Shown here piece by piece: positions 11,057 to 45,805 of a DNA stretch of 64,000 bases; position 1 is the stretch's first letter; every line of letters begins with the position of its first letter. The position numbers and the translations under genes are program-made. The stretch is taken from assembly GCF_963682185.1 (NCBI RefSeq), contig NZ_OY821667.1, positions 788,109 through 852,108 on the forward strand. The letters run 5' to 3'. The stretch is from an uncultured Cohaesibacter sp. (GTDB lineage Bacteria; Pseudomonadota; Alphaproteobacteria; Rhizobiales; Cohaesibacteraceae). A model generated the notes under the pieces. That model ran no database searches, was not told the DNA's origin, and saw nothing but the letters and a program-made list of their open reading frames with translations.

Positions 11057-13339
11057 ATGATTAGACCCATCATCAAAGCAGCGACCACAGGCTTTTGCCT
11101 TGTAGCCATGACGCCCCTTGCCAGTGCGCAATCACTGCCTGAAAGCGTGCCTGTGCCCAGAGCCCGCCCGGCGATTGCACTTACTGCACCCATGGCAACT
11201 CCGGAGGCAACGCCCGAGCCGGCCCCAGGCCTTGAGCAAACCGCACCATCCGCTCCGCAAAGCACGGCCGACCTGCCTGCCAATCTTGTCATTTTGCCCA
11301 AAAACCGTACTGACCCGATGGTTTCACCCGCGCCCCCCTCACCGACAGTGGGTAGCGGTGCCGCACTACAATTGCCCGTGGCTGCAGCAGAAGCCGCCCA
11401 GCCCGAAACATCTCTGCCAACCGTACGCAGCCATGACAATGGCATTTCGGCGGAACGTGGCTCGCTCAAGGATGCGCTCACCGCCCTTGAAAAGAACGAT
11501 CAGAAAAAAGCGCTTGCCATCCAGAAAGGCATGAAACCCTCTCTGGACCGGACATTGCTCACTTATATTCTCATCATTGGTGGCTATCACAATTTCCCGG
11601 CCAGCGAGATCAAGGCCTTCTATGACCACAATCCGCAATGGCCCAGCCGCAGCCTGACCCAGCGCCGCATAGAAGAAGCCGTCGCGCGCGAAACAGAGAC
11701 CGGAGCCGAGATGGTTCGCGCCTTTGGCAACGCCATTCCCGAATCGACAACTGCGGCTATTGAGCTCGCCATCTCCCAGGCCAAAGTTGGCAACAAGGCA
11801 CAGGCAGCCAAGATCATCCGCCCGATCTGGCGCGAAAGTGCTCTGGATTCCAAAACGGAAAGCCGCATTCTTTCCAATATGCGCTCGGTGTTGACCAATG
11901 AGGATCATTTCCACCGCGCCAGCTATTTGCTCTATCGGGATCGAGCCAACGGGGCCTTGCGCCTCAAGCGCTATCTGACGGATGCCCAGATGAAACTGGT
12001 CAATGCGCGCGTAGCGGTCATCCGCCGTGCTCGCAATGCCGGGTCTCTGCTCAGAAGCGTTCCCAGCTCCTTGCGAAAGGATCCCGGCTACATCTTTTCC
12101 GAAATTCAGTATACACGCCGACAGGGTAAGGAAACTGAGGCGGCGGATCTCATTCTCAAGGCCCCTCTGGATGAGGATCACCTGATCAACCATGATGCAT
12201 GGTGGGATGAGCGGCGCCTTCTGGCCCGCATGATGCTGAACAAGGGAGATGCTCGCCGCGCCTACAAGATCGCGGCAAGACATTCAGCAGAATCCGGCAA
12301 GGACTTCTCTGAAGCGGAGTTCCATGCAGGTTTCTTCGCCCTGCGCTATCTGCATGACCAGAAGACCGCCGCGGTGCATTTCGAAAATAGCTGGAAAAAG
12401 GCCACCCGCACGCAGGACAAATCCCGCGGCCTCTATTGGCAGGGGCGTGCGTGGGAAGCGGCAGGCGACAGAGCCGTTGCGGTCAAGTTCTATCATGCAG
12501 CCGCCAATGCCACCAATTATTACGGTCAACTGTCTCTGGAAGAACTGGGCACGAAGCATCTCAACCTGAGAACCCCTCCCCCGGCCAACGCCACGCAAAA
12601 AGCACGCTTTGAGCGTCGCGACCTGGTGCGAGCCATCAAGCGTCTCAAGGCCGTTGGGCAAGAAGACCGCGCCGGTCCACTCTTCCGCCATTTGGCGCGC
12701 ACGCTGGCTGATCCATCCGAAATCGAACTGGCCCATAAGCTCGCCCAAAGCTATGGCCTACACCAGAACGCGGTCCAGATTGGACAGTTGGCGCTCAACC
12801 GAGACATGCCGGTCGACAAGCTGGCCTTCCCGCTGCATGCTCTGCCCATGGGCGTCAAAACCAATGGTGTCGACATTGCTCTGGTCTATGCCCTGACCAA
12901 GCAGGAGAGCGTATTTGATCTCAAGGCCCGCAGCCATGCCAATGCACGCGGACTGATGCAAATGCTCCCGGCAACGGCCAAGAGAACCGCCCGCAAACTC
13001 GGCGTCTCCTATTCCCTGTCCCGGATCACGAGCGACCCCAATTATGCCGTACTTCTGGGCAGTGCCTTCCTGAAGGAGAATCTGGAGCGCTTTGGCGGTT
13101 CCTATATCCTGACCTTTGCCGCCTATAATGCAGGCCCCGGACGCCCGCCGGAATGGATCGAGCGCTTCGGCGACCCTCGGACCAACGAGGTAAGCGCGAT
13201 TGACTGGATTGAACGCATTCCCTTTTCGGAAACGCGCAACTATGTCATGAAGCTGATCGAGAATTTGCAGGTTTACGAAGCCCGCATTCACAACGAAACG
13301 CTGGACATCAGCCAAGATCTCAAGCGCGGCCACCCTTAG
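11057..13339 (+). CDS. slt: Soluble lytic murein transglycosylase
   Basis: Cleaves peptidoglycan glycan strands in the periplasm to form 1,6-anhydromuramoyl products. The 760-residue protein starts with a signal peptide (hydrophobic core to about residue 22, ending ASA-Q), then a Pro/Ala-rich linker to about residue 130, a long helical superhelix (about 140-580), and a C-terminal SLT domain. The catalytic Glu is Glu617 (LTKQESVF), followed by ARGLMQMLPATAKRTARKLG and YNAGPGRPPEW. It is longer than E. coli Slt70 mainly because of the linker. The stop codon lies inside the 26-bp repeat that bounds the proposed island, so the coding end has been kept intact at the junction. Confidence 0.95.
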   Translation: MIRPIIKAATTGFCLVAMTPLASAQSLPESVPVPRARPAIALTAPMATPEATPEPAPGLEQTAPSAPQSTADLPANLVILPKNRTDPMVSPAPPSPTVGSGAALQLPVAAAEAAQPETSLPTVRSHDNGISAERGSLKDALTALEKNDQKKALAIQKGMKPSLDRTLLTYILIIGGYHNFPASEIKAFYDHNPQWPSRSLTQRRIEEAVARETETGAEMVRAFGNAIPESTTAAIELAISQAKVGNKAQAAKIIRPIWRESALDSKTESRILSNMRSVLTNEDHFHRASYLLYRDRANGALRLKRYLTDAQMKLVNARVAVIRRARNAGSLLRSVPSSLRKDPGYIFSEIQYTRRQGKETEAADLILKAPLDEDHLINHDAWWDERRLLARMMLNKGDARRAYKIAARHSAESGKDFSEAEFHAGFFALRYLHDQKTAAVHFENSWKKATRTQDKSRGLYWQGRAWEAAGDRAVAVKFYHAAANATNYYGQLSLEELGTKHLNLRTPPPANATQKARFERRDLVRAIKRLKAVGQEDRAGPLFRHLARTLADPSEIELAHKLAQSYGLHQNAVQIGQLALNRDMPVDKLAFPLHALPMGVKTNGVDIALVYALTKQESVFDLKARSHANARGLMQMLPATAKRTARKLGVSYSLSRITSDPNYAVLLGSAFLKENLERFGGSYILTFAAYNAGPGRPPEWIERFGDPRTNEVSAIDWIERIPFSETRNYVMKLIENLQVYEARIHNETLDISQDLKRGHP

Positions 13340-13350
13340 GCCGCGCCCAC
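13325..13350. repeat. 26-bp direct repeat, left copy; candidate attL core
   Basis: This 26-bp sequence recurs exactly at 45780-45805. Its core is CGCGGCC, a 7-bp spacer ACCCTTA, then GGCCGCG: inverted 7-bp arms around a 7-bp spacer, as in tyrosine-recombinase crossover sites. It contains the slt stop codon, and the arms could also form the slt transcript's terminal hairpin. Identity stops abruptly on both sides. Confidence 0.75.
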
Positions 13351-13376
13351 AGGCTCGAATCCTATCGGGCACACCA
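13349..13376 (+). other. tRNA 3'-end-like fragment, T-arm to CCA
   Basis: The order is a T-stem strand ACAGG, a 7-nt loop CTCGAAT, a T-stem strand CCTAT (four of five pairs), a 7-nt acceptor strand CGGGCAC, a discriminator A, and CCA. Spacing is exactly that of a tRNA 3' end and the bases resemble bacterial tRNA-Arg. The upstream half of a tRNA is absent, because slt coding sequence lies there. It overlaps the left repeat by two bases, a typical position for an attachment-site remnant. Confidence 0.45.
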
Positions 13377-13622
13377 ATATAACATTGATATAATTGGTCT
13401 TTTCAGAAACACCACAGTTCTACTGGATTGAGCTGATCGCTAGATTCCACTCAAATATCCCCGAAATCCGTACAAACCGCGTACACTACACTAAACTGAT
13501 TTGCCCCCCGCTTTATCCTGTCAAATACGGTCGGAACCACATGCACAAAAAACTAGCTGCAATTTGACCCTGGGCGGAAGGAAATACAAAGCCATGTCTA
13601 TCAGCATTTCAAAAAGAGTTGG

Positions 13623-13907
13623 TTGCAGACTGGAATAGTCAAATCTCAAGAAAAATCTATACATAAACTTGCGTTCGAAACAGTTTCCGACACATATCTC
13701 TCGGAAAACAAGTTTTTTGAAGAACCGGATGAAGATGGCGATGCGTTTCCAAACATTGATTGCATATCCATGATCAATAAAACCAACAGCATGTTGGTCG
13801 TGGAGTACTATTTCCATTACAAGAGAGACACCAGATCTCTAAACATTCGGGACAAAATCTCAGCCTCTCACAACGATATGATGTTTTACTTATTTGAAAG
13901 ACAATAA
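13623..13907 (+). CDS. Hypothetical protein, possibly 5'-truncated
   Basis: An open frame of 94 residues from a TTG at 13623; the frame is open back to 13557 without an ATG or a ribosome site, so it may be the 3' part of a broken gene. The product is acidic in the middle (FFEEPDEDGDAFPNID), has no signal or membrane segment, and matches no family I recognise. It lies between the left repeat and the TIR gene, in AT-richer DNA than slt. It could equally be a chance frame. Confidence 0.35.
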   Translation: MQTGIVKSQEKSIHKLAFETVSDTYLSENKFFEEPDEDGDAFPNIDCISMINKTNSMLVVEYYFHYKRDTRSLNIRDKISASHNDMMFYLFERQ

Positions 13908-14155: not shown

Positions 14156-16099
14156 CTAGATTTCTTTGCTTGCCAGTGAGAAAACTGACAAATCATTACC
14201 TACCATGCCACGAACTTCTTTATCACCTTCAGGCATCACAATAATGAATTTTTGTGTAGTTTCAGAAATGCCGAGCAATGTAGAAACCGTCGGTCCGCTA
14301 CCTTCCTTTTTCTTTGTCCGCTCACCAATTACGACCTTTCCAATAAATCGACCACGGTACTCGACGGTATAAGTCTCATCCTTTTCCCGAATGATAGTTC
14401 CGCTCAGCGAGTTCCCCAAGGGAGGCGCTTTCCTCTGGAATGAGCCGGACGCAAAAAATAAGTCACCTTCTATTCGTATGATTAGCTCACAATCCGAATC
14501 CGACATCGTGTCTGAAGTAATGTTTGGTGCTTGGAGCCAAAGGTGCTCGCCAACATGGCTTAGGAATTGACTCTTGGAAGTCACTCCTTTCAACTTGTCT
14601 TCATGGGCTGCCCTTTCTTTTCCCGGAATTTCCTTCAGCCGGACAAGTGCAGATGCCACGTTGTCATGGTAGATCGAATTGCTCTGAGCTTTTCTCAGAA
14701 TCTCCTCAGCTTCAGGCAAAAAACCTGAACCCATAAGCTCATAGGCGAGATTACTCATTGCAAGCGTCTCGCCCTTCTCTTCAGCCTTCCGAAAAGCATT
14801 GATTGATTTCCCTTTGATAGAGAAGTGACGATAGGCAACCCCTAAGTTATTCCAAGTCATTCCATTCCTCTGATTGGCAGGAATTTTCTCATAGTGGAAC
14901 ATGGAAAGAGCTTCTTTTCCTGTCTGCGAGTAGAGGTAGGCCAAATCAAAACGCTTTGATGTGTCAGTTGGGTCGATAGCTAGCTCTCTTTCCAACATCG
15001 CAGCCTTTAAGACATCGTCTTTGTACCAATCAGAAAGGTTCGTCAACTTGGCTAGCAGCAGCTCTTCATCTTCTGGACCTTTTACGAGATCGCGCATTTC
15101 TTGCAAAATCTCAGACACCTCTTCAGTGCTAACTAGCTCCTGTGAAATTTCGGCCAGATCCCCAAGGAGACCAAGCTTTTTGCTGCGATCTTCGGTGTAC
15201 TTAATTGCTATGCGAAAATGGGATTTGGCTTTTTCAAAGTCATCAAAATGCAAATAGCCTCTGGCCACATGTTCATGCACAGATGAATTTTCTCCGTACT
15301 CATCACCCAACGTGGAAAGTCTGGACAAATCCCCGTGCTCGGTCCATTTCAATTTGTTTAGCTCACAAAATGAGTCCCACTCACCGATTGCATCGAGATC
15401 CTCGGGAGCGAGCGTTGCAAGGTAGGTCTCTGAAACCTTTGTTGAGTGTTCCTCATCCCTGCACAGCAACCCAAAGATGAACTGATGTTCGAACTCAGAT
15501 ACGCTTGACGAAGGATCTGGCACTTGGAGCCCTTCTAGTGCCGCTTTGCCGCTTTGCTCCTGCTTGTGTGGAGATACGACCTCCGCCCCTCGCGCCTCGC
15601 CCGCGACGCTATCTTTGGGACTAATTGAGCCAATACTATCGAGAAATTCTCGACGCTTACGACTTATCACAGCTTGCTTGTCTGTGATTGTGAAATTCGA
15701 CCTTAGGGAGTCAATGAATTCTGTAACTCGATCTTCATCATTGATATAAAATCCGATCTCGCGAGGATCCAAGGCTCCATTTCTGAATCTAGCATCGTCC
15801 AATTGGAAGATCGGCGTAAATATCGCAGTATGCTGATTTTCTACAATCCAAGCCGCCCCCATCTCATTAAGGCACGCAATGCTTGAATAATAATCTGATG
15901 ACAGTAGAAATATAACGAATGGTCGATCAGCTATTTGCTCCTTCAACCAATCAAAAATGTTCTTGCCAACTGGGATGCCATATGCTGCGTCGCTCGTAAA
16001 CACGATGCTTTCATGATCGACGCCAACTCCGGTAAGTAGATTCACCAAAGCTCGCCCATAAGCTGCGTCATTGGATGAGTGAGAAATGAAAATCTTCAT
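14156..16099 (-). CDS. TIR-domain protein with TPR-like repeats, probable NADase-type defence protein
   Basis: A 647-residue cytoplasmic protein. Residues 1-135 form a bacterial TIR domain: the MKIFISHSSNDAAYGRAL start, the DWLKEQIADRPFVIFLLSSDY strand-helix, and the SIACLNEMGAAW motif whose Glu79 matches the catalytic glutamate of NAD-cleaving TIR proteins. A charged linker follows, then helical TPR-like units from about 205 to 500 (for example TWNNLGVAYRHFSIKGKSINAF and LAYELMGSGFLPEAEEILRKA). A beta-rich C-terminal region with no family I recognise runs from about 540 (GRFIGKVVIGERTKKKEG). Stand-alone TIR-TPR proteins are known or suspected in phage defence, with the repeats sensing and TIR killing. 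It sits near the left end of the proposed island in AT-richer DNA. No SAVED, STING, Argonaute or cyclase gene is beside it. Confidence 0.88.
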   Translation of the reverse strand: MKIFISHSSNDAAYGRALVNLLTGVGVDHESIVFTSDAAYGIPVGKNIFDWLKEQIADRPFVIFLLSSDYYSSIACLNEMGAAWIVENQHTAIFTPIFQLDDARFRNGALDPREIGFYINDEDRVTEFIDSLRSNFTITDKQAVISRKRREFLDSIGSISPKDSVAGEARGAEVVSPHKQEQSGKAALEGLQVPDPSSSVSEFEHQFIFGLLCRDEEHSTKVSETYLATLAPEDLDAIGEWDSFCELNKLKWTEHGDLSRLSTLGDEYGENSSVHEHVARGYLHFDDFEKAKSHFRIAIKYTEDRSKKLGLLGDLAEISQELVSTEEVSEILQEMRDLVKGPEDEELLLAKLTNLSDWYKDDVLKAAMLERELAIDPTDTSKRFDLAYLYSQTGKEALSMFHYEKIPANQRNGMTWNNLGVAYRHFSIKGKSINAFRKAEEKGETLAMSNLAYELMGSGFLPEAEEILRKAQSNSIYHDNVASALVRLKEIPGKERAAHEDKLKGVTSKSQFLSHVGEHLWLQAPNITSDTMSDSDCELIIRIEGDLFFASGSFQRKAPPLGNSLSGTIIREKDETYTVEYRGRFIGKVVIGERTKKKEGSGPTVSTLLGISETTQKFIIVMPEGDKEVRGMVGNDLSVFSLASKEI

Positions 16100-16778: not shown

Positions 16779-16949
16779 TTAGAGACGGCCCTCACCGGCT
16801 ATCCGGAGAACGCTTTCAGCATTCCGCGAGCTGCCATTTGTTGATGCTGCAACAATAAAGTCAGATGGTTGGATCATTTCAAACAGGCTCTTGATGCTCT
16901 GCACCTCTAAATCTTTCTGGGTGAGAACAGCACCAAGAGCCGGATTCAT
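16779..16949 (-). CDS. Short ORF coupled to the NadX-like gene, possible gene remnant
   Basis: A 56-residue frame whose ATG overlaps the stop of the dehydrogenase gene (TAATG), the arrangement used for translational coupling. The product (MNPALGAVLTQKDLEVQSIK and onward, containing QPSDFIVAASTNG) fits no family I know. It may be the start of a truncated downstream gene of the catabolic operon, cut where the foreign small gene now ends five bases away on the other strand. Confidence 0.4.
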   Translation of the reverse strand: MNPALGAVLTQKDLEVQSIKSLFEMIQPSDFIVAASTNGSSRNAESVLRIAGEGRL

Positions 16950-17764
16950 TACGAACCAACCGTGAGTGTGGCCACGAAGCGTTCCAGGGTCGCAATAACT
17001 GACAAAGGCGTGAGCTTGCCTGTTATCGGATTGTTTTCACTCGGCACATTGGCGATGGACATCTCGAAATGCGTCGAATCCGCATCCACCACAACCGTAT
17101 GTGTGTTGCGATCAATCGTCGGATCGGCCCAAACTTCGTAATTCGTGCGGTCTGGCCCCACGCCGGCCAGAGACAGGGCCACGGCGACATTGACGTTGGA
17201 TGGAAATTTCTGGGCTGCTTCTCGAACGGAACCGCGATAGAGGCAAAGAGGTTCCGTCAAGGAGAGCAGATCAATCCCCTGCTCCTTGACGAACGGCGCA
17301 TTGGCGAGCCCCTTGGGAGGCTTGCGCGTTTTCATGACGATTTCATGTATCGTGCCTTTGGCTGCTGCCCGAACAGAATCGAAACCGACAAGAGCACCGG
17401 TTGCACCGATGATATGGGCCCCTGTCTTGCTTGCGCGATCTACCAGTTCATAGTTTGCCAGCAACTGGGTCAGCGTGACGATCACGAGCGTACGTCCCTG
17501 CTCTATCGCAGGCTTTGCCACTTCGAGGAAGTGGGTTGGAGGCAGGGCCTCGACCACGATGTCTGCCACAGAAGCAAGCTCACTGTTAAGCATCGGTTCG
17601 GGCGGATTGCGAAAATCGGCGGTCAGTTCACGCACTTTTTCGAGGCTGGAGGAAGAGGCTGCGACCAGTTTCAATCCCGGAACGCCCTCGTCAAGCCACC
17701 GTGCAGCAGGAAGACCGATTGTGCCGAGGCCAGCGATCGCGACTGTTTTGGGTTCGGTTATCAT
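16949..17764 (-). CDS. NadX-like aspartate dehydrogenase family protein
   Basis: An NAD(P)-dependent L-aspartate dehydrogenase family member of 271 residues. The N-terminal dinucleotide motif GLGTIG is at about residues 12-17, the substrate domain has the IIGATGALVGFDSV loop and NVNVAVALSLAG, and the C-terminus has the DRNTHTVVV and ANVPSENNPITGKLTPLS segments typical of the family. Starting at 17764 puts the Rossmann strand near the N-terminus; the longer reading from 17869 adds an unlikely leader. In other bacteria NadX oxidises aspartate to iminoaspartate or feeds it to catabolism. Here it is the last recognisable gene of the pxp/TRAP cluster, suggesting a catabolic role with amino acids rather than NAD synthesis. 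Confidence 0.82.
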   Translation of the reverse strand: MITEPKTVAIAGLGTIGLPAARWLDEGVPGLKLVAASSSSLEKVRELTADFRNPPEPMLNSELASVADIVVEALPPTHFLEVAKPAIEQGRTLVIVTLTQLLANYELVDRASKTGAHIIGATGALVGFDSVRAAAKGTIHEIVMKTRKPPKGLANAPFVKEQGIDLLSLTEPLCLYRGSVREAAQKFPSNVNVAVALSLAGVGPDRTNYEVWADPTIDRNTHTVVVDADSTHFEMSIANVPSENNPITGKLTPLSVIATLERFVATLTVGS

Positions 17765-18204
17765 TTTTATATCTTTCAATGGGCGTTGCCATATACTGGA
17801 CTGAGGCAACAAAGGCTGCGAAATCCTGTGAGATTTTAAGCCGGACGCTGTTTGCCATGGGGGACACAACTCTGTTCCTGGCGTTAAAATGACCCCGGTT
17901 TAACTATGCAGATTTTTACGAAATCTCCATGGGAAAGGTCAAGCTTTGGAAGGCGGGAAACAGACAGCGGCCCGGATTCGAGATGCGAATACTCACCCCA
18001 TCAACAGCATAGAACAGTTTGGACAGATCATCCCGGATGGCCCGATGCTGATGGATGCGATTATCCATCCAGCCTTCGGGTTCAAGGAACCAGCTACACA
18101 GGAACAGTTGAAGCATTTCCATGCGTTTAATGGTCTTAGGAGAACCGTATGCTATGCCAAGGTTGTGCCTCCTCAGAGGCAACCTATCCAATCTGTTCCA
18201 AACT
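17765..18204. other. Gap between pxpC and the NadX-like gene
   Basis: About 440 bp with overlapping open frames on both strands (87 residues rightward from 17946, about 109 leftward from 18245), neither resembling a known family. pxpA, the expected third oxoprolinase gene, is not here. The stretch may hold gene remnants. Confidence 0.4.
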
Positions 18205-19209
18205 TCAAATGAATGCGTCGACAAAGCAGTCGCCGTCAGTAACACCGCTGACCAGCTGGCAAGACATCAGATGAGATCTGGCAGGTGTGCGCTTATCTTT
18301 GATAGCGTCGATGAGTGTAACTTCATCTCGATATAGCGCCTCCGCCTCGTCCAGATCCATGCGTTGAAACCGCAACTCTGTCCCCGGTACGGCTTGTGCC
18401 AAAATCGGAAGATCATTCGGGAAGATCGTACCGATGCGCGGATACCCGCCCATAGTCTGGCACTCTGCCATCAGAATATAGGGCAGGCCGTCCCCGGTCA
18501 TTTGTATGTCTCCGGGCCCGATGACATCCGAAGCAAGGCCAGAGGCATGACTTGAGGTAAACCGATGGGGAGAATCCAACTGCACGCCCTGTCTATTGCC
18601 ACGAACAGCGCGCGTGAAGGTCGTCGCGTAAAAAGTATCCAGAGTTTCCCGAGTGAACAATGCTGTTTGCGGGCCATCAAGAACACGCACAAGCCCCCCG
18701 CCAAAGCGGTCTGTTTTTTCAAGACGCTGCTGGAGCGAGGCGTAGTTTGGATCGCGTCCGCAGAGAAGACATGAGCCTCCCTTGAACAATGAGCCGACCC
18801 CAATCGTCAGGTGAGTGGAATAGCTCTCCAGCCATTGCGGCGACATCAGCCCCCCCGCGGGGGTGAGATAGCTATAGAGCCCCTCTGTGGCACCGCCGAT
18901 ATGGAGGATCTGCTTCGGTTCAATCTGGAGGGAGCAATTCCAGTCGACAGCAATCCCATCAAGTGTGGCTTTCATCGGCGCACCGGTAAGTGCGATCCTT
19001 GTCGTCTCGGATACGGAGAAGGTCCCGCCAGCACAGGCCATTTCAATCGCAGGGAGGATCCGGCTGGCTCCGAGTAGAGCCGCAGCTTCAACAAGTGCCA
19101 GCCGGTCCATTGCGCCACCACGCGAAAGGCCCTGCGCCAAGTATCCCGGGCGCCCCATATCCTGAATGGTCATCAAGCCATTGGCCTTGAGAATGTTCAA
19201 TATTGTCAT
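18205..19209 (-). CDS. pxpC: 5-oxoprolinase subunit C (KipA family)
   Basis: KipA/PxpC-type subunit, 334 residues. The family signature at the start is clear: GLMTIQDMGRPGYLAQGLSRGGAMD, then NYASLQQRL and later FTSSHASGLASDVIGPGDIQMTGDGLPYILMAECQTMGGY with the conserved glycine-rich turns. With PxpB and PxpA it forms the ATP-dependent oxoprolinase that opens 5-oxoproline to glutamate; related proteins are carboxyltransferase-like domains. Its ATG overlaps the pxpB stop by four bases. PxpA is missing from the neighbourhood, so either it is encoded elsewhere or this pair works on another amide or lactam. Confidence 0.9.
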   Translation of the reverse strand: MTILNILKANGLMTIQDMGRPGYLAQGLSRGGAMDRLALVEAAALLGASRILPAIEMACAGGTFSVSETTRIALTGAPMKATLDGIAVDWNCSLQIEPKQILHIGGATEGLYSYLTPAGGLMSPQWLESYSTHLTIGVGSLFKGGSCLLCGRDPNYASLQQRLEKTDRFGGGLVRVLDGPQTALFTRETLDTFYATTFTRAVRGNRQGVQLDSPHRFTSSHASGLASDVIGPGDIQMTGDGLPYILMAECQTMGGYPRIGTIFPNDLPILAQAVPGTELRFQRMDLDEAEALYRDEVTLIDAIKDKRTPARSHLMSCQLVSGVTDGDCFVDAFI

Positions 19210-19952: not shown

Positions 19953-20015
19953 TGTCCTTTTCCACTTCAGTTAGGGCGAGGCTATCAAGCCCCCGCCCCG
20001 CTGATTTTTTTAAGC

Positions 20016-21838: not shown

Positions 21839-21860
21839 AACAATTTCGCCCGATATGTGG

Positions 21861-31490: not shown

Positions 31491-31492
31491 GG

Positions 31493-32488: not shown

Positions 32489-32491
32489 GGC

Positions 32492-36180: not shown

Positions 36181-36265
36181 GACCTTAAATCTCCTCCTTG
36201 AATCGATTTGTGGTGTCACACGAGCCATTTCCTCCCGGCTCAAAAATGTCCACAAATCACCCCCT

Positions 36266-37146: not shown

Positions 37147-37190
37147 GTGTCACGTGGCACCACTAAATTCCCTTAATGCACACGCGTGCA
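37147..37190. promoter_or_regulatory. Two palindromes with central CG, LacI-type operator candidates
   Basis: GTGTCACGTGGCAC (37147-37160) and TGCACACGCGTGCA (37177-37190) are each symmetrical about a central CG except for one pair. Centres are 30 bp apart and lie upstream of the importer operon that carries its own LacI gene (43517-44533). Confidence 0.45.
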
Positions 37191-37268
37191 ATCACATTCA
37201 TTCAACCGTTACGCATCCGCGTAGAGCCATCTTTTCCAGTCAACTGTTCTTTCATTGGAGATATTGGG

Positions 37269-38618
37269 ATGACCATTTCCAAAGCCCTCAAACTTGCAAC
37301 TATGACCGCGGCACTTGCCCTGTCCAGCACGGCGGTTTTCGCTCAGGACTACACCATCAGTGTTTGGTCTGGCGGAACCGGAGAAAGCGAGAATTATCGC
37401 GTCGATAACATCGAAATCGCGGCCGAAGAATTGATGCGGGAGGCTGCCATCAGTGGGGACGACCTCTCCATCTCCGTGGAGAAAAAGACCTTCACAAGCT
37501 GGGATGATTTCAAACAGGCCGTCACGTTGGCCGCAGAATCCAATACGGCGCCCAATATCATCGTCACGGGTCATGAAGACATCGCGCCTTGGTCGCAGTC
37601 CGGCCTGATCCGCCCGATCGAAGACTATATTGATCTGGACGCATGGCCGATGAACCAGATCTATCCGAACCTGATCGACATCGCCTCTTTCAACGGCCAG
37701 GTCTGGGGGCTGCCGCAGGATGCAGAATCCCGCCCCTTCTTCTTCTACAAACCGCACATGAAAGCCATCGGCTACACCGATGATCAGATCGAAGCCCTGC
37801 CGGCCAAGATCGAAGCGGGCGACTACACCCTCTATGATGTGCTTGAAGACGCCAAGAAAATGCAGGATGCCGGTCTTGTTGAAGCCGGACATGGCTTCTA
37901 TCCGCGCGTCTCCAATGGCCCGGACTACTGGCAGTTCTATGTCAGCTTCGGCGGCGAAATTCAGGATAAGGAAAGCGGCAAACTGGTCTTCAACAAACAG
38001 GCCATGACCGACATGTATCAGTTCTTCGCCGATGCGGTCGAAATGGGCGTCACCTCCCCCACCCATCTGGGGACCGACTGGGGCCAGTGGTATAACGAAG
38101 TCGCCAACGGCAAGGCCGGCATGTGGCATGGCGGCACATGGCACTACGCGCGTTATCAGAAGGAAGGCCAAGAAGACTTCTTTGGCAACATCCAGTTCTC
38201 CCTGATCCCCGAAGGCAATGCCAATGGCAAGCCCAACACGGTCACCCACCCGCTGGTCTACCTGATCAGCAACACCGGCAACGATGATGTGGCAGAAGTG
38301 GCCTCCCAGCTTGTCGCCATTGCGTCGGAACCGCGCCTGAACACGCTGCATGCCATCAAGTCCGGCCATCTGGCCATTGGCTCCGAGCAGACAGCCGTTC
38401 CGCTTTATGCCAATGATCGCTGGGCGTCCGAAGCAACCGAGCGCCTGCTGCCGCATGCGGTTTCCATGCCAAACAACACCGATTTCGGCGCCTTCTGGAC
38501 CACCATGTTCAAAGGTCTTGAAGCATCCTGGACCGGTCAGAAGAGCGTGGCTGATGCAGTCGCTGATGTGGAAGCCGAATACAAGGCAACCATGGCCGAC
38601 GCCATCATCATGAAATAA
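37269..38618 (+). CDS. Periplasmic solute-binding protein (family 1, sugar/glycerophosphodiester type)
   Basis: 449 residues with a signal peptide (MTISKALKLATMTAALALSS, cut near AVFAQD). The mature protein has the family-1 layout: SVWSGGTGES near the start, FNGQVWGLPQDAESRPFFFY for the first hinge, and GKAGMWHGGTWHY later. The ATG at 37269 follows GGAG by nine bases; the frame upstream to 37176 is not needed. It heads a six- or seven-gene operon with two permeases, an ATPase, a tandem glycerophosphodiesterase, a LacI regulator and an inositol-phosphatase-like enzyme, which suggests a phosphodiester ligand of glycerol. Confidence 0.92.
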   Translation: MTISKALKLATMTAALALSSTAVFAQDYTISVWSGGTGESENYRVDNIEIAAEELMREAAISGDDLSISVEKKTFTSWDDFKQAVTLAAESNTAPNIIVTGHEDIAPWSQSGLIRPIEDYIDLDAWPMNQIYPNLIDIASFNGQVWGLPQDAESRPFFFYKPHMKAIGYTDDQIEALPAKIEAGDYTLYDVLEDAKKMQDAGLVEAGHGFYPRVSNGPDYWQFYVSFGGEIQDKESGKLVFNKQAMTDMYQFFADAVEMGVTSPTHLGTDWGQWYNEVANGKAGMWHGGTWHYARYQKEGQEDFFGNIQFSLIPEGNANGKPNTVTHPLVYLISNTGNDDVAEVASQLVAIASEPRLNTLHAIKSGHLAIGSEQTAVPLYANDRWASEATERLLPHAVSMPNNTDFGAFWTTMFKGLEASWTGQKSVADAVADVEAEYKATMADAIIMK

Positions 38619-38762
38619 CGATCTCCGACAGGGCCTCGAAGCAGGCCTTGAGGATCAAAAACCGGTCGGGCGTCTCCTCTCCAGCGTCCGACCACCTTCT
38701 GACGACAGGAATGATCGAAGGCAACTTCAAATGAATAGTCAAATGCGAGGAGGTGTTTAGAC

Positions 38763-40079
38763 ATGCGCCAGAAAACCAGTTTGCTGGGGCTTGGCTTCAT
38801 GACGCCTGCTCTGGTCATGGTCCTTTTATTTTTCCTCATTCCGGTGGTTCTCACCGGCGTGTTTGCATTCACCAACATGAGCACGGCAACGGGGATCAGC
38901 GGCGGCGACTACATGATCACACCACAGACGGTCAAACGCCTTGCGGACAATCCGGTCTTCGACAAGGGCCAGATAGAGCGGCTTGGCTCGGAAAGCTACC
39001 GTGTTGACGAGACTTCTCTGGAAAAGGCAGCCAATGAGGGAGTAGGCCCGGCCTTCCTGAAGGAAATTTCAAAAGACCTGAAGGGCTCAAACTTCGCCTC
39101 CAACCGCGACTTTGTCCGGGCCCTCAAGAAGCTGCGTAACCGTCCGCGCAGCATGCGCGACCTCAAGCGCGCAGCCGATCCCTTCTCCCGCTCCGTGCTT
39201 AATGAGCGCTTTGCCACGCAAGACATATTTCTAGCGGCTCTGGGCGAGCTCAATCTGGATCTTGATGAGAAAGAGCGAGACGCCATCCTCAGCGAAGCCT
39301 ACACAGGCTGGACATGGACGACCGAGAATTTCAAGACGATGATCTCCAAGCCCGGCACCAGCTTCATTGTGCTCAACACAATTTTCTATGTCGCGACAAC
39401 CCTTGTGTTGTTCAACATCGGCTTTGCACTGTTCCTCGCCATTACCACCTTCTATCTGCCAGAAGGGCAGGCAACCTTCTTCCGTGCGGTCTGGCTGTTG
39501 CCTCGCATCTCACCACCCGTGCTCTATGTTCTTTTGTGGAAGTGGATGCTCTGGGACAATGGCTTCTTGTCCACCATCACCGGCTGGTTCGGCGTTCCAC
39601 CGTTCAACTATATGTTGGGGTCCGTTTCATCAGCATGGACGGCCGTCATTCTGATCAACGGCTTTATCGGAGCCTCCATGGGGATGCTGATCTTCTCATC
39701 GGCGCTAAACGGCATTCCCGCCTCGATGCTGCATGCCAGTGAAGTGGACGGGGCCTCGCGCTGGCAGCAGATCCGCCATATCATTCTACCACAACTCAGG
39801 TGGCCAATCCTGTTCGTCACGTCCTATCAGACTCTGTCGCTGCTGACCTCCTTTCAGGAAATCCTTCTCTCGACAGATGGTGGCCCCGGTGGCTCCACCA
39901 CGGTCTGGTCCCTTGAGGCCTATTTCACGGCCCTCAACAACTATGCGGGCAATCTGCAATATGGCTATGGCGCATCCATGGCGCTGGTTCTCGTGGTTGT
40001 CGGCATCCTTCTTTCCCTCCTCTATCTGCGCGTCTTCAAGTTCAACGAGCTTGTCACCAAACCGCGCATCGAAAACTAG
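38763..40079 (+). CDS. ABC transporter permease (MalF/UgpA type) with large periplasmic insert
   Basis: 438 residues, well above the usual 290-320. After the first membrane helix (about 9-35) there is a hydrophilic stretch of about 160 residues (to about 198), rich in Lys, Arg, Glu and Asp, before the second helix (FIVLNTIFYVATTLVLFNIG). MalF also has a big second periplasmic loop, but the sequence here is not similar to it. The EAA loop is seen near 330 (SEVDGASRWQQIRHIILPQL). GGAGGTG lies eight bases before the ATG. The insert may contact the binding protein. Confidence 0.92.
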   Translation: MRQKTSLLGLGFMTPALVMVLLFFLIPVVLTGVFAFTNMSTATGISGGDYMITPQTVKRLADNPVFDKGQIERLGSESYRVDETSLEKAANEGVGPAFLKEISKDLKGSNFASNRDFVRALKKLRNRPRSMRDLKRAADPFSRSVLNERFATQDIFLAALGELNLDLDEKERDAILSEAYTGWTWTTENFKTMISKPGTSFIVLNTIFYVATTLVLFNIGFALFLAITTFYLPEGQATFFRAVWLLPRISPPVLYVLLWKWMLWDNGFLSTITGWFGVPPFNYMLGSVSSAWTAVILINGFIGASMGMLIFSSALNGIPASMLHASEVDGASRWQQIRHIILPQLRWPILFVTSYQTLSLLTSFQEILLSTDGGPGGSTTVWSLEAYFTALNNYAGNLQYGYGASMALVLVVVGILLSLLYLRVFKFNELVTKPRIEN

Positions 40080-40090
40080 GAGGCCAGATC

Positions 40091-40927
40091 ATGAAAAATG
40101 AACAATCCCGCAATTACAACAAATGGCCGATCCTGCTGTTCCTGAGCGTCACCTCGCTGCCAACGCTCATCATGTATGCCTATCTGGTCATCGATACGCT
40201 CAGCAACACCGCGCCGGGCTCTCTCATTCCGAACGAATTCACGCTCAGCCATTGGCGCTTCTTGTGGAGCGCGGCCGATGGAGCGCATGACGTCTGGCTG
40301 GCGACATGGAACACCTTCCTGTTCTCCACGATCATGACGGCCATCGTGCTCCTCGTTTCGCTGACGGCAGGCTACGCCCTGTCGCGCCTCAACATGCCGT
40401 TCCGGTCTTTCTTTCTGGCCGGTATCATGACCCTGCATGCCTTTCCCACGATCACGCTGGTCATTGCTCTCTTCATCACCCTTCAGATGGTCGGGCTCTA
40501 TGACACGCTGACCGGTGTCATCCTCATCCGTGCGGCCCTGACGCTGCCGCTGGGCATATGGATCATGAAAGGCTTCTACGACACGGTGCCATGGGAAATC
40601 GAAATGGCCGGCATTCAGGATGGTGCAAGCCGCTTCACTGTCTGGCGGCGTCTGATCTTGCCGCAGGTGCAGCCAGCACTGATCGCGCTCGGGGTCTTCA
40701 CCTTTCTCGAAGGCTGGAAGGAATACATCCTGCCCCAGATCTTTGCCCCCAGCGCCAATGTGCGGGTGCTATCGGTGCTGCTCGCAGAGCTGATTCAGGA
40801 CAACGAGCATTTCGACTTCAATCTCTTCAAATCCATCGGGCTCTTCTATGTGATCCCGGTCATCATTCTCTATCTCATCTTCAACAAGAAGCTGATGAAT
40901 ATCTACGGCGGAGGCACAAAAGGCTGA
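40091..40927 (+). CDS. ABC transporter permease (MalG/UgpE type)
   Basis: 278 residues with six predicted membrane helices. The first is at about 13-32, the AFPTITLVIALFITLQMVGL helix is in the middle, and the EAA loop reads PWEIEMAGIQDGASRFTVWR near residue 180. Partner of the MalF-like permease, which ends 11 bp upstream. The ATPase gene starts at its stop codon (TGATG overlap). Confidence 0.94.
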   Translation: MKNEQSRNYNKWPILLFLSVTSLPTLIMYAYLVIDTLSNTAPGSLIPNEFTLSHWRFLWSAADGAHDVWLATWNTFLFSTIMTAIVLLVSLTAGYALSRLNMPFRSFFLAGIMTLHAFPTITLVIALFITLQMVGLYDTLTGVILIRAALTLPLGIWIMKGFYDTVPWEIEMAGIQDGASRFTVWRRLILPQVQPALIALGVFTFLEGWKEYILPQIFAPSANVRVLSVLLAELIQDNEHFDFNLFKSIGLFYVIPVIILYLIFNKKLMNIYGGGTKG

Positions 40928-41985
40928 TGCGTATCACGCTTGACACATTCTCCAAAAGCTTCGGTGACACCAAGGTCATCGACAAACTGGATCTCCAGAT
41001 CGCCGATGGCGAGATGATCGCTCTGCTGGGCCCTTCCGGCTGCGGCAAATCCACCACCCTGTTTGCGATCTGTGGCATTCATCAAGTTACCGGCGGACGC
41101 ATCCTGTTCGGGGATCGCGATGTCACGCACACCAGCGCGCAATCCCGCAATGTGGGGGTCGTCTTCCAGAATTATGCGCTCTATCCGCACATGTCGGTGT
41201 TCGAAAATATCGCCTTCCCCCTGACCATCCGCAAGATGGACAAGAGGGAGGTGGAGCGTCAGGTGCAAGCCATTGCCGAACTGGTCCATATCCCCGAATT
41301 GCTCAAGCGCAAGCCTGCCCAGCTCTCCGGCGGGCAGCAGCAGCGCGTCGCACTGGCCCGCGCCCTCATCCGCAAGCCTGACGTCCTTTTGCTCGATGAG
41401 CCTTTGGCAAACCTAGACGCCAAATTGCGCCTTGAAATGCGCTCAGAAATCCGCCGCATTCAGCAGGAGACAGGCATCACGGCCATTCTCGTTACCCATG
41501 ACCAGGTTGAGGCCATGTCCATGTGCGACCGCATCGCCATCATGAAGGATGGAAAGATCCTGCAGATCGACACCCCGACAGACATGTATAGCAACCCCAA
41601 GAATGACTTTGTCGCAGGCTTTCTGGGCAATCCACCGATTGCATTTCTGGATGGCCAAGCAACTGGCGGCTCCTTCTCGCTTGCCAATTCCAATATCACC
41701 CTGCCGCTGCCTGCCCATCTCTCATCGCTCAATGGATCAGCCCCCATCCGATTGGGAATACGGCCCGAGCTGGTTGGCACCAAGGGCGAGACGACCATTT
41801 CAGGGCGCATTTCCTTTATCGAAACACAAGGGCGGGAGAATCTCTACGACATCACCATGCCCGATGGATCGGTCCTGCGCTCCATTCAGCATGTGCGCGA
41901 TGACGTAAAACTGGGAGACAATGTCACCTGGCCAATTGATTGCTCCAGACTGCTGGTCTTCAACAGCGAAGGGGAGCGCCTCTGA
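40927..41985 (+). CDS. ABC transporter ATP-binding protein (UgpC/MalK type)
   Basis: 352 residues. Walker A GPSGCGKST, Q-loop VFQNYALYPHMSVFENI, signature LSGGQQQR, Walker B VLLLDEPLANLD, and H-loop LVTHDQVEAM; a TOBE-like regulatory domain from about 240 (GIRPELVGTKGETT). It starts within the stop of the permease gene and its own stop overlaps the next start (TGATG), so the genes are tightly coupled. UgpC in E. coli imports glycerol 3-phosphate and its diesters; the following glycerophosphodiesterase supports a similar load. Confidence 0.94.
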   Translation: MRITLDTFSKSFGDTKVIDKLDLQIADGEMIALLGPSGCGKSTTLFAICGIHQVTGGRILFGDRDVTHTSAQSRNVGVVFQNYALYPHMSVFENIAFPLTIRKMDKREVERQVQAIAELVHIPELLKRKPAQLSGGQQQRVALARALIRKPDVLLLDEPLANLDAKLRLEMRSEIRRIQQETGITAILVTHDQVEAMSMCDRIAIMKDGKILQIDTPTDMYSNPKNDFVAGFLGNPPIAFLDGQATGGSFSLANSNITLPLPAHLSSLNGSAPIRLGIRPELVGTKGETTISGRISFIETQGRENLYDITMPDGSVLRSIQHVRDDVKLGDNVTWPIDCSRLLVFNSEGERL

Positions 41986-43520
41986 TGCCATTTCTCGACA
42001 AGATCAAGGCGCTGGGATGGGCAGTGGACGCTGACGGCAAGCCGCAGAGCCGCTTTGGTGGCCCGATGATCATTGCCCACCGCGGGGCCAGCGACCATGC
42101 ACCGGAGAACACCCTGGCAGCTTTTGAACTCGCCTCCCGCTTCGGCGCCGACATGTGGGAGCTGGATGTCCATAACACGGCCGATGGCATCCCGGTGATC
42201 AGCCACGATGCGCATCTGGGGCGCGTCTTTGGCGTTGATGCCTCCATCGCAGACCTGACGCTTGCACAATTGCGAGCGCTGGACACTGTCGATGTGCCAA
42301 CGCTGGAAGAAGCCGTCGATCTGGCCACGCGCTTGGGAGCCGGGCTCTATATCGAGATCAAGGGTCAGGGAGCCAATCTGTCCACGCTCGCGCTGCTGCA
42401 AGAAAAGCAGTTCTCCTTCGCCTCTCTCGGCTCTTTCCTGCCTCAACATGTAGCCGAGCTGGCAGCCCTTGAGTGCCCCTACCCGCTCGCGATCCTCGTC
42501 GGCCTTGATCACGACCCATTTGCCCTTGCAGACATGGCTCGTGCCGATGTCATGCATCTGTGCTGGGAGCGCGCCAGTGACCACCCCGACCGACTGCTGG
42601 ACCATGCCTTGATGGACAGGGCCAGAATGGCGGACCTGCCCATCGTGCTGTGGCATGAAGAACGCCCTGAGGTCATTCGGGAGGTCATGACAGCGGACGT
42701 GATTGGCGTCTGCTCCAACCGGCCCGAACTGCTTGTTCCCTATCCTGCATCGCCCGCGCGTCCCTCGAACCAGCCCAAGGGACCGGAGGTCGTTTGCCAT
42801 CGCGGCATCAACAAGCTCGCGCCGGAAAACACGATGAAGGCTGCTCGGCTTGTCTTCGAACAGGGATTCGACTGGCTGGAGCTGGACGTACAGCAAACGG
42901 CGGACAATCAACTGGTCGTCATTCATGACGATACCCTCGAGCGCACCACCAATGGCAAAGGGCTGGTTTCGGCAAAGACGCTGGCCGACCTGAGGCAGCT
43001 GGATGCTGGCGGATGGATGTCGAGGCGACATGTCGGCGAACAGATCCCCACACTGACTGACATGATCGATCTGGCGAAGTCCTTCAACAAGCGGATTTAT
43101 ATCGAACTCAAGAAGTCGGACCCGAGGCTCGTACTTGATCTCGTGCGGGCAAAGGATTTCCTCGACCAGTGCTTCTTCTGGAGCTTCGACTGGCCCAAGA
43201 TCGAAGCCCTGCGTGCGATGGAACCCGACGCCAATATTATGGTGCGAACGCAGGATCATTCATCGATTGAGGCGCTTTTCGATGTGACCACGCCAGACAT
43301 TGTCGAGATCACCATCAACGAAGCCAATCAAGACAAGATCGATCAGATCAGGGCGCGAGGCGCGAAAGCGATGATCTGCTATATGGGTGAAGAGATGGCC
43401 GTGATGGAGCGCATACAATCCCTTGCGCCCGATATGGTGAATCTGGACAATCCTCATGTGTGGAAAGAGATTCTGCACTGCAAGCATTTGACCGGCAGCG
43501 GAAAGACCCTGAGCGCATGA
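41985..43520 (+). CDS. Tandem glycerophosphodiester phosphodiesterase
   Basis: 511 residues with two GDPD barrels in one chain. Domain 1 (about 27-250) has AHRGASDHAPENT with His32-Arg33, Glu59 and Asp61 (WELDVHNT) and His74. Domain 2 (about 267-500) has CHRGINKLAPENT with His272-Arg273, Glu299 and Asp301 (LELDVQQT) and His314 (VVIHDDTLERTTNG). Both keep the catalytic set, so both could be active; domain 1 has a shortened loop after His74. No signal peptide, so it acts in the cytoplasm on imported glycerophosphodiesters, giving glycerol 3-phosphate plus an alcohol. Single-domain forms are about 240-300 long. It is translationally coupled to the ATPase and to the LacI gene (4-bp overlap). Confidence 0.92.
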   Translation: MPFLDKIKALGWAVDADGKPQSRFGGPMIIAHRGASDHAPENTLAAFELASRFGADMWELDVHNTADGIPVISHDAHLGRVFGVDASIADLTLAQLRALDTVDVPTLEEAVDLATRLGAGLYIEIKGQGANLSTLALLQEKQFSFASLGSFLPQHVAELAALECPYPLAILVGLDHDPFALADMARADVMHLCWERASDHPDRLLDHALMDRARMADLPIVLWHEERPEVIREVMTADVIGVCSNRPELLVPYPASPARPSNQPKGPEVVCHRGINKLAPENTMKAARLVFEQGFDWLELDVQQTADNQLVVIHDDTLERTTNGKGLVSAKTLADLRQLDAGGWMSRRHVGEQIPTLTDMIDLAKSFNKRIYIELKKSDPRLVLDLVRAKDFLDQCFFWSFDWPKIEALRAMEPDANIMVRTQDHSSIEALFDVTTPDIVEITINEANQDKIDQIRARGAKAMICYMGEEMAVMERIQSLAPDMVNLDNPHVWKEILHCKHLTGSGKTLSA

Positions 43521-44533
43521 AGACCGATGAAGACAAGTCTGGACCGGTGACCTCAATTGATGTTGCCAAACGAGCCGGGGTGTCCCGTTCCGCGGTCTCT
43601 CGCACCTTTACGCCCGGAGCGAGCGTAGCGCCGGAAACCCGTGAAAGGGTTCTAAAGGCAGCGTCAGAGCTGGGCTATCGCGTAAACCAGCTGGCGCGCA
43701 GTCTGACCAACAAGCGATCGGCTCTGGTGGGGATCGTCGCGGCCAACCTCGACAATCCGTTTCGTGTCGAGCAGATCGAGCAGATTTCCCGGCAGTTGAT
43801 CGCGCGCAATTTCCGCCCCATCCTCATGCCAGCCGAAGCTGCAGAAGATCCTTCCCATGTGATCGGCCTGCTACTGGAATATAGCGTCTCTGGGGTGATC
43901 GTTACGTCAGACACGCCCCCCGAGGCGATCTGTCAGGAATGCGTCTCCCTTGGCGTGCCCATGGTTCTGGTCAACAAGCGCGGCATCGATGCGCCGGTCG
44001 ACCGCGTGCTGATGGACAATGAGAACTGCGGCAGGATTGCCGCGCAAACCCTGCTGCAAAAAGGGTGTCAGCGCCTGGCGCTGATCACGTCCGAAAGTCC
44101 CTCCTTCTCGCTCGAAGTCAGGCAGGACACATTTTTGCAGACGGTCCGCGAGGCATGCGAAACCCCGGCACAGGTCTTTGCGGGACAGTTTCAGAATTAC
44201 GAAGGCGGGGCAGAAGCCGCCGGGCGCTTGCTGGCGTCGGATGCCGACTTCGACGGAGCCTTCTGCGTGACCGATTACATGGCGCTTGGCGTTCTGGACA
44301 AGTTGCGGATGGAGGGAGACCGATCCGTGCCCGTCGAGATTCAGATCATCGGCTGCGACGATATCCGGCAGGCATCATGGCAGGGTTATTCGCTCACCAC
44401 AATCCGTCAGGATACCCAGAAACTCGCCGATGGCGTTGTCGAGGCGCTGCTCACACGGTTTAACAATCCGAACACCCCGGCAACCACCCGGATTTTACCG
44501 GTGACACTGATCGAGCGTGGCACAACGATGTAA
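43517..44533 (+). CDS. LacI-family transcriptional regulator
   Basis: 338 residues. The helix-turn-helix is TSIDVAKRAGVSRSAVSRTF, the hinge NQLARSLTNKRSALVGIV, and the sensor domain is a periplasmic-binding-protein fold (VLVNKRGIDAP, IQIIGCDDIRQASW). The ATG overlaps the phosphodiesterase stop (ATGA), so it is made with the operon, and probably represses it from the palindromes at 37147-37190. The inducer may be an imported product such as glycerol 3-phosphate or inositol; this is inference. Confidence 0.92.
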   Translation: MKTDEDKSGPVTSIDVAKRAGVSRSAVSRTFTPGASVAPETRERVLKAASELGYRVNQLARSLTNKRSALVGIVAANLDNPFRVEQIEQISRQLIARNFRPILMPAEAAEDPSHVIGLLLEYSVSGVIVTSDTPPEAICQECVSLGVPMVLVNKRGIDAPVDRVLMDNENCGRIAAQTLLQKGCQRLALITSESPSFSLEVRQDTFLQTVREACETPAQVFAGQFQNYEGGAEAAGRLLASDADFDGAFCVTDYMALGVLDKLRMEGDRSVPVEIQIIGCDDIRQASWQGYSLTTIRQDTQKLADGVVEALLTRFNNPNTPATTRILPVTLIERGTTM

Positions 44534-44642
44534 CAGTCCCCGCAAACCTGTTCCGCAGACAACAAAGCTGTTGGGCCATTGCCGTTGCACGTCACCACCA
44601 TGGCGGGCCGAAGTGACAGACCCAAGCATCCAGGAAGAATTG

Positions 44643-45440
44643 ATGCAAGAACGATATACCCTTGCCATGTCGATGGCACGCGACGCCGGCGCCATGGCGC
44701 TTGAAAGACTGCAAGACCTTAAAAATGGTTCAATTTCGGTTGAAACCAAGGGACCTCTCGACTTTGTCACAAGGGCCGACAGGGAGGTGGAAGCCTTCAT
44801 TCGCGAGCAGATCCTTGCCCATTTCCCCGATGACGGCATCGTTGGAGAGGAACTTGCCTCCGCCCACCCGACCAGCGAGATCAAGTGGGTCATCGACCCC
44901 ATAGACGGAACCGCCAACTATATCCGGGATCTCGATAGCTGGGGGGTCTCCATCGCCTGTGTCGTTGATGGGGTTTGCGAAATCGGCGTGATCTACGGGC
45001 CAGCAAAAGACAAATTGTTCCACGCCCGAAAAGGCGCAGGAGCTTTCCTCAATGGGGTTCCATTGCCCGAGGCTAGAGGTTTGGCACAAGCTCCGGCCAA
45101 CCCCATCATGTCCCTTGGCCATTCGCGCCGCATTCCGCTGTCGATCTACCTTGACGCCATTCGCTGTCTGGACGACCGAAAGATCGACCACAGGCGCGCT
45201 GGCTCCGCCGCCATTGCACTCACACAGGTTGCAGAAGGAAAGGTGGATGGGTATTTCGAGGGGGATCTAAACCCTTGGGACTGTCTCGCGGGTCTCCTGA
45301 TAAACGCCGAACTGGGCATCATCATTCGGCAAGGTGGCACGATGAGTGCGGACCTTCAGAACAGTCCGGTGTTGGTCGGTCATCCGTTTCTGCAGGACAC
45401 ACTTGATGCGCTTGCGTCTCTTGAGAACGAGGCGGTGTGA
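44643..45440 (+). CDS. Inositol-monophosphatase-family phosphatase
   Basis: 265 residues with the magnesium-binding motifs of the family: VGEELAS (Glu69-Glu70), WVIDPIDGTANYIRD (Asp85 and Asp88), and the second motif GDLNPWDCLAG with its metal-binding Asp. An AGGAAGAA ribosome site precedes the ATG. It follows the LacI gene by 109 bp. Family members dephosphorylate inositol phosphates, histidinol phosphate or bisphosphates. Downstream of a glycerophosphodiesterase and importer, an inositol-phosphate or sugar-phosphate alcohol product is a reasonable guess. Confidence 0.9.
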   Translation: MQERYTLAMSMARDAGAMALERLQDLKNGSISVETKGPLDFVTRADREVEAFIREQILAHFPDDGIVGEELASAHPTSEIKWVIDPIDGTANYIRDLDSWGVSIACVVDGVCEIGVIYGPAKDKLFHARKGAGAFLNGVPLPEARGLAQAPANPIMSLGHSRRIPLSIYLDAIRCLDDRKIDHRRAGSAAIALTQVAEGKVDGYFEGDLNPWDCLAGLLINAELGIIIRQGGTMSADLQNSPVLVGHPFLQDTLDALASLENEAV

Positions 45441-45496
45441 GCAAGCTCGTCCTCCTTCCTGAACACATCGAATATATTTTTTATGGAGAATGCAAC

Positions 45497-45735
45497 ATGC
45501 CGCTCCAAGCATACAAGCGCGGAAAAAAAGTCGTCCAAGGCTAATGCCTCATGAAACCGGTCGACACGGGATCGGCACCCAAATGTTTGTCCGCCAGCGC
45601 GTTGATCAGAAATCCTGTGCTGAATATACTCGCTGGAAGGACGCCAGCTTGTTCCTGCAAACCTACGCACATGCTGAGGAAAGTACGGAAAAAGGGACTC
45701 AGCGCAATCCCTACACCGTTCCTGCAAAATTATAA
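45497..45735 (+). pseudogene. Tyrosine integrase remnant (N-terminal start plus C-terminal catalytic end)
   Basis: A GGAGAA ribosome site precedes an ATG whose translation starts MPLQAYKRGKKVVQG and then stops; MPL..YKRG is the typical N-terminus of many alphaproteobacterial phage-type integrases. In another frame the next codons read MPHETGRHGIGTQMFVRQ and then RWKDASLFLQTYAHAEES, matching the integrase C-terminal His-Arg-His region and the catalytic Tyr in TYAH. About 250 middle residues are gone and the frame is shifted, so it is an internal-deletion pseudogene. It sits 45 bp inside the right 26-bp repeat, where an island's integrase belongs. Confidence 0.75.
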
Positions 45736-45779
45736 GAATAGATAACATCTTGGAATACAAAGGAATTACTCCAATTGAT

Positions 45780-45805
45780 CGCGGCCACCCTTAGGCCGCG
45801 CCCAC
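45780..45805. repeat. 26-bp direct repeat, right copy; candidate attR core
   Basis: Exact copy of 13325-13350, with the same 7-bp inverted arms and ACCCTTA spacer. Here it is intergenic, between the integrase remnant and the alpha/beta hydrolase. The two copies are 32,455 bp apart in direct orientation. Confidence 0.75.

Follow-up and report, generated by a model that had tools for sequence, protein, structure and literature searches.

The integrative and conjugative element ICEBs1 normally occupies a stem-loop of 17 bp (5-bp arms, 7-bp spacer) within a tRNA gene, and according to the sections of the report drawn on here it can also enter imperfect sites, with excision reduced or eliminated at all secondary sites analysed (PMC3715440). 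The secondary sites described in those sections came mainly from cells without the primary site, and one was also tested with the primary site present (PMC3715440). Among phage-inducible chromosomal islands (PICIs), new sites evolve within the late-gene integrase clade, and one group resides in tRNA-Phe with an integrase extremely similar to that of the protein-gene type, as described in the cited part of that study (PMC10111431). Here, we describe a 32-kb genomic island at the 3′ end of slt, a lytic transglycosylase gene, in a 64,000-bp stretch of the genome of an uncultured Cohaesibacter sp. (NZ_OY821667.1, positions 788,109 to 852,108; hereafter the window). The island is very probably an integrative element of tRNA-Arg(CCG) type, belonging to a tyrosine-integrase family, that has resettled at the 3′ end of slt.

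The island is framed by 26-bp direct repeats, the attachment (att) copies, that are identical, share the same orientation, and lie 32,455 bp apart start to start, exactly as an earlier note on this sequence had reported. No 26-mer repeat appeared in any of 100 shuffles of the window (highest count, 0). Each copy consists of perfect 7-bp arms (CGCGGCC and GGCCGCG) around a 7-bp spacer (ACCCTTA), followed by CCCAC. The stop codon of slt (TAG, 13337-13339) lies inside the left copy, and the gene is left intact, again as the earlier note had it. A genome scan (5,391,032 bp, up to two mismatches) for the 19-bp centre of the repeat found the two island-end copies and none elsewhere. We rejected the reading of the 26-mer as a dispersed repeat because no further genomic copies exist at this threshold.

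The empty site is preserved in close relatives. In all 17 Cohaesibacter relatives compared, slt is adjacent to an alpha/beta hydrolase gene, the protein matches being at most ~590 bp apart (in G004, only part of the hydrolase gene is matched, at the end of a contig). G002 and G009, the nearest genus relatives by slt (98 and 97%, respectively), carry one exact 26-bp copy between the two genes, and the sequence past this copy runs into the hydrolase gene as it does behind the right copy in the window. The earlier note had proposed to look for precisely this arrangement. At up to three mismatches, the 26-mer was found in none of the other 15 relatives, which leaves it in three of the 18 genus genomes. 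Neither an island at slt lacking the repeats nor a partly filled site was found in any of the 17 relatives. Further copies of the 26-mer and an island without the repeats were the two findings that the earlier note had named as refuting it, and neither came up. Direct repeats that flank an insert and a single copy in the empty site are thus found together, as in genomic islands of tyrosine integrases. The simplest reading is that the island was inserted after the split from G002 and G009, since the alternative needs losses in all relatives.

The left end ties the island to tRNA-Arg(CCG). Immediately behind the left copy lies the 3′ end of such a gene, a feature that the earlier note did not mention; the spacing from T loop to CCA is correct (read by eye), and ARAGORN called no whole tRNA there. 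An initial pattern search gave two tRNA-Lys genes and one tRNA-Arg gene at three mismatches; tRNA-Lys was rejected as the source once the element ends had settled tRNA-Arg(CCG). Further inward, arm repeats (CCGTACAAACCGCGTACA) are found at 13468-13485, which is 119 bp behind the core, compared with 119-121 bp in relatives. The left end of the island was matched in eight of 121 genomes; one was the window's own genome, and G002 and G009 were matched through the 26-mer only. The remaining matches, at 73-79% identity, are six left ends in five relatives, namely, G005, G012, G006, G014, and two in G013. A whole tRNA-Arg(CCG) gene flanks the G014 end and one G013 end; by eye, the flank of the second G013 end resembles a decayed tRNA-Arg(CCG), and the left ends in G005, G012, and G006 are flanked by the end of another element. 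Across the genus, the tRNA-Arg core is present in 29 copies in 17 of the 18 genomes (up to two mismatches; none in G015). The tRNA-Arg 5′ half precedes 18 of these copies, and an arm repeat follows nine of them at 119-121 bp (pattern with up to 8/31 substitutions). This pattern search detected arms in G001 and G003 that the left-end match search of the 121 genomes had missed.

At the right end, the earlier note had seen an integrase remnant just inside the repeat, and this identification holds. Integrase residues 289-339 are encoded at 45541-45693 (61% identity, 51 aa, E 1.8e-16). Taken by itself, the match of residues 1-10 at the N terminus (45497-45526; 90% over 10 aa) is weak, with an E value of 0.49, but the DNA at 45452-45525, which covers the upstream region and the integrase start, matches both G007 and G006 with 81% identity over 74 bp. 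Pfam found no family in a 51-aa C-terminal piece. The intact relatives have 354 and 356 aa, and PF00589 was matched in one of them (L067, E 5e-12). Each of these two intact integrases, L067 and L066, is followed by the tRNA-Arg core, with two GTACA repeats at -76/-65 and -74/-63 from the core. The island carries an integrase of this kind with arm repeats behind it, although the gene is a remnant and the repeats are mutated. When the right ends are aligned, the 26-mer occupies the position of the tRNA core in G007. The earlier note had envisaged a tyrosine-recombinase element; the element ends support this, and the integrase at one end survives as a remnant lacking ~278 codons.

These ends bear on whether the 26 bp could be a target duplication left by something like a transposase, with no link to the integrase. 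Both copies do equal the native target, but the 26-mer sits at the att-core position of the relatives, with matching arm-repeat distances on both sides, and resembles the tRNA-Arg core in register; we consider this origin very improbable.

Viral sequences suggest which target came first. Three integrase relatives were found in IMG/VR. The two whole ones (L127 and L128; 47 and 49% identical) precede the same tRNA-Arg core, and the contig of the third (L129) ends inside the gene. Because two viral relatives keep this core, tRNA-Arg appears to be the older target and slt the derived one. Relatives on plasmids (two records) and phages (seven records) all have <30% identity, and a search among named genomes gave one match.

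In register, the slt 26-mer agrees with the genome's own tRNA-Arg core at 18/26 positions, with 15/19 outside the spacer and 3/7 within it, and the slt spacer aligns on the anticodon loop. For the G006 and G007 cores on the integrase side, the agreement is 17/26. Shuffled cores reached 18 matches in 9 of 200,000 cases; this shuffle and the position scoring below used a composite core, which likewise scores 18 against slt. Among 642,220 positions in 16 sequences, both strands included, 16 score at least 18. These comprise nine family cores (one again on the opposite strand), four slt copies (two in the window and one each in G002 and G009), and two chance places. The resemblance supports the register and the kinship, but slt is not a unique choice. 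The att core is that of slt and matches the tRNA-Arg anticodon arm at only 17-18 of 26 positions, and the ends match the family; the island thus derives from the tRNA-Arg(CCG) family by its ends and is not a standard member.

We propose that this integrase family normally targets the anticodon arm of tRNA-Arg(CCG) and that the element settled instead at the last bases of slt, where a site of 7-7-7 geometry resembles the arm in register. If a circular form recombined with this site, the event would produce the two direct repeats, preserve slt, and strand the tRNA 3′ end of the element at the left. An integrase would have acted in cis or in trans, and the element would now be unable to excise by itself; it is probably grounded at slt. 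The uniform slt cores could mean that the attP core was already of slt type in a close relative or that the cores were homogenised after insertion.

Several observations weigh against this proposal. Tyrosine integrases exchange strands within a short overlap, and attL and attR each take one arm from each partner. Plain secondary insertion accordingly predicts hybrids, yet both att copies are wholly slt-like over 26 bp, and how the core was exchanged is not explained by it. The genome's own tRNA-Arg(CCG) holds the sole tRNA-Arg core copy in this genome, and no arm of the element family was found within 260 bp of it; the primary site is vacant, and therefore overflow from an occupied site was not the reason. 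The two chance places outscore slt (19 and 20), so the resemblance alone would not single slt out. Only two of the 121 genomes have a close intact integrase, and three have any match. Finally, the spacers agree at 3/7 positions only, and tyrosine integrases tend to enforce identity of the overlap spacer, as stated in the cited part of PMC10111431.

Two variants of the resettlement reading, and one bolder idea, address the uniform cores. In the first, the attP was adapted to slt before arrival, in a sub-lineage with slt as its regular target, which we regard as possible at somewhat below an even chance. This would fit the 26/26 match of both copies to the native site, the vacant tRNA-Arg site, and the 4/26 changes in the stranded tRNA 3′ end. 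The 26-mer is limited to three genus genomes, though, so such an attP must stem from a small clade; no second slt-type element was found in that clade, and a 20-bp part of the slt-type att has no exact match in the viral contigs of IMG/VR. A second variant, which seems rather unlikely, has a tRNA-type attP insert at the secondary site and the cores then homogenised to slt via heteroduplex repair or gene conversion. The genome's tRNA-Arg core differs from slt at 8/26 positions, four of them in the spacer, so that few arm positions need conversion (four, or five for the G006 and G007 cores), and the 26 bp stop about where the resemblance stops. Both copies must nevertheless have been converted the same way, no intermediate was seen, and the genomic island SGI1 at a secondary site retains differing left and right repeats in the described part of that system (PMC2297512). 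Unlikely in our view is the bolder idea that, at a secondary site, an element can swap its whole attP core, including the spacer and both arms, for that of the host target. This would give rise in one step to a sub-lineage faithful to a new protein-gene target, with the old tRNA 3′ end as a fossil, and if true it would be a direct route for integrases to change targets.

The flanks raise a further alternative. They differ from G002 by roughly 2-4%; the 2-kb bins beside the island have identities of 97.1% on the left and 97.8, 97.0, 97.7, and 96.3% on the right, compared with 92.6% over 92,483 aligned bases of a 200-kb stretch. These five bins were selected after the profile had been viewed, and import of the flanks by homologous recombination is suggestive only. 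That slt and the island were imported whole in this way from a close relative, with no integrase action in this genome, would agree with these bins (96.3-97.8%) and with the decayed integrase. We consider it quite unlikely, as 9/40 other bins also reach 96%, the next bin to the left is at 92.6%, and G002 and G009 are themselves without the island. No sharp tract border turned up, although no search was aimed at one, and import merely shifts the original insertion to the donor.

The earlier note had also proposed that the integrase decayed since arrival. The gene is indeed broken. The flanks are ~2-4% from G002, whereas the remnant and left end are far more distant from their nearest known relatives, none of which is a close donor; the decay may have preceded or followed arrival.

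The cargo of the resettled element is a mosaic of mostly metabolic genes (Table 1). The module at 16949-24782 is devoted to amino-acid catabolism with a TRAP transporter, and that at 37176-45440 is a glycerophosphodiester module. Near the left end, the TIR/SpbK-like protein may have an anti-phage role and is a possible defence cargo. Among the matches listed, G006:C13 shares 83% identity with 19901-24785, a block at a different place in G013 shares 79% with 37114-45346, and the nearest relatives of the modules differ and lie at other loci of other species; dispersed stretches also occur at 13671-14067 and 16345-16859. The stretch at 36607-36924 is probably a mobile-element remnant. No family was matched by a 226-aa open reading frame (ORF) at 25390-26070. 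The Pfam scan of selected island ORFs, not every short one among them, turned up no relaxase, the gene that would mark an integrative and mobilizable element; the related element in G006 has a borderline Relaxase match (24.8 bits vs. a cut-off of 24.6). A tRNA-Glu called by ARAGORN at 29971-30066 was taken as false, being inside the GlpD-like gene and not in the Rfam result.

Table 1. Features of the slt island and its borders (window coordinates).
Feature	Coordinates	Strand	Evidence and remarks
slt, lytic transglycosylase, 760 aa, target gene	11057..13339	+	ORF; PF01464; matched in 17/17 genus relatives
Left att copy (attL core)	13325..13350		7-7-7 geometry + CCCAC; one copy in G002 and G009
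3′ end of tRNA-Arg(CCG) gene, T loop to CCA	13351..13376	+	22/26 identical to the genome's own tRNA-Arg(CCG)
Element left-end region	13377..13508		like six element ends in five relatives, 73-79% identity (72-79% in a further comparison)
Decayed ORF akin to a gene on the G014 tRNA-Arg element	13623..13907	+	23/54 identities, E 2e-9 (single pair)
TIR-domain protein, weak TPR match, SpbK-like	14156..16099	-	TIR_2 E 1.9e-8; PADLOC spbK 1.1e-52
Amino-acid module: aspartate dehydrogenase, 5-oxoprolinase-like carboxyltransferases, tripartite ATP-independent periplasmic (TRAP) transporter, D-glutamate cyclase family, LysR	16949..24782	-	
Sugar or polyol module: LsrF-type aldolase, FGGY kinase, GlpD-like oxidase, aldo/keto reductase, SorC/LsrR-type regulator, ATP-binding cassette (ABC) transporter	25390..36255	-	
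Short stretches dispersed in other genus genomes	36607..36924		e.g., 88% G015, 86% G005 (among matches listed)
Sugar or glycerol-3-phosphate-like ABC transporter, GDPD, LacI regulator, inositol monophosphatase family	37176..45440	+	
Integrase remnant, residues 1-10, then 289 to stop	45497..45735	+	~278 codons gone
Integrase-side arm repeats, mutated	45711..45726		CTACA, CTGCA vs. GTACA, GTACA; -73 and -62 from core
Right att copy (attR core)	45780..45805		identical to left copy
Alpha/beta hydrolase, slt neighbour in relatives	45910..46947	+	ATG near 45910 picked by eye; listed ORF opens at 45775

The guanine-plus-cytosine (GC) content is 53.1% in the island, 53.6% in the right flank, and 52.1% in the left flank. 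Bins 12001-16000 and 40001-44000 stand out by a higher 4-mer distance, but so does 1-4000, outside the island. Composition fails to mark the island as a whole, by GC or by 4-mers, and the GC profile suggested in the earlier note thus gave it no backing. The same note had the 32 kb arrive, or be assembled, as one element. A single arrival is the simplest account, but the island may also have been built up stepwise, given that the modules have different nearest relatives elsewhere. In particular, the cargo may have grown in place through later insertions between the att copies of a smaller element, which is compatible with resettlement at slt. The different loci of those nearest relatives, the three dispersed stretches, and a module GC content spanning 44.4 to 57.0% would accord with such growth; since no partly filled site exists among the 17 relatives, we hold it to be somewhat doubtful.

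Other elements of this kind were observed in the genus, where tRNA-Arg(CCG) bears tandem elements. The tRNA-Arg element in G006 carries multiubiquitin, ThiF, and UvrD-type genes. A 3.7-kb element in G014 (L070:2314-6060) is without an integrase of the tRNA-Arg family, has an insertion sequence-type transposase, and may be moved in trans. In G016, a displaced tRNA-Arg-type left end (C29:162553-162572; L118, L168) stands in a non-tRNA setting ~27 kb from slt and may be another ectopic insertion; the searches did not find the arm pattern there, and a CGTACA pair was discerned by eye only.

Beyond the island, a second insertion of ~5.4 kb (3625-8979) with LysR, cupin, SDR, AraC-like, NmrA, and DUF4345 genes lies between two tRNA-Met genes. 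In G002, G009, and G013, the starts of the corresponding genes are separated by ~165 bp. No integrase was found among the scanned ORFs of the insertion, and inspection by eye showed a short imperfect repeat of the tRNA-Met end at 3616-3624. To the left of the two tRNA-Met genes, positions 1-3447 have no counterpart in the compared regions of G002, G009, and G013 and form a variable region beside the slt region. Just right of the island, a thiamine pyrophosphate riboswitch (47035-47139) precedes a transporter operon.

Shifts of integrase targets are hard to catch in the act, and the slt locus preserves evidence of the old and the new target together: a tRNA-Arg relic, the in-register resemblance of the new target to it, the exact empty site kept by two near relatives, and intact integrase relatives that could be tested. 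It also illustrates how metabolic cargo may become fixed after the integrase and arm sites have decayed. A limited literature search found no report of slt as a target of the tRNA-Arg(CCG) element family.

In comparison with described systems, the closest class is the anticodon-type tRNA islands, site class A of Islander, which in the part of the source cited (PMC4383910) share with the slt island an exchange site at the anticodon loop and a tRNA fragment marking the element end. The relatives of the slt island carry a terminal integrase and have arm repeats on either side. Unlike the class A islands as described there (PMC4383910), the slt island has the 3′ end of slt as its core, the tRNA 3′ end as a stranded relic, and a broken integrase. 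SGI1 at sodB-purR is likewise a genomic island at a second site with an imperfect core, but its left and right repeats differ in the account given in the cited part (PMC2297512), unlike those of the slt island. PICIs belong to another integrase family and other hosts; the proposed shift at slt runs from a tRNA gene to a protein gene, whereas the cited part of the PICI study does not state a direction (PMC10111431). As for ICEBs1, in the sections drawn on here (PMC3715440), the slt island differs in that the genome has the primary site, unoccupied, and neither repeat departs from the slt form. By analogy, the entry of ICEBs1 into imperfect sites and its impaired excision from them fit the apparent fixation of the slt island.

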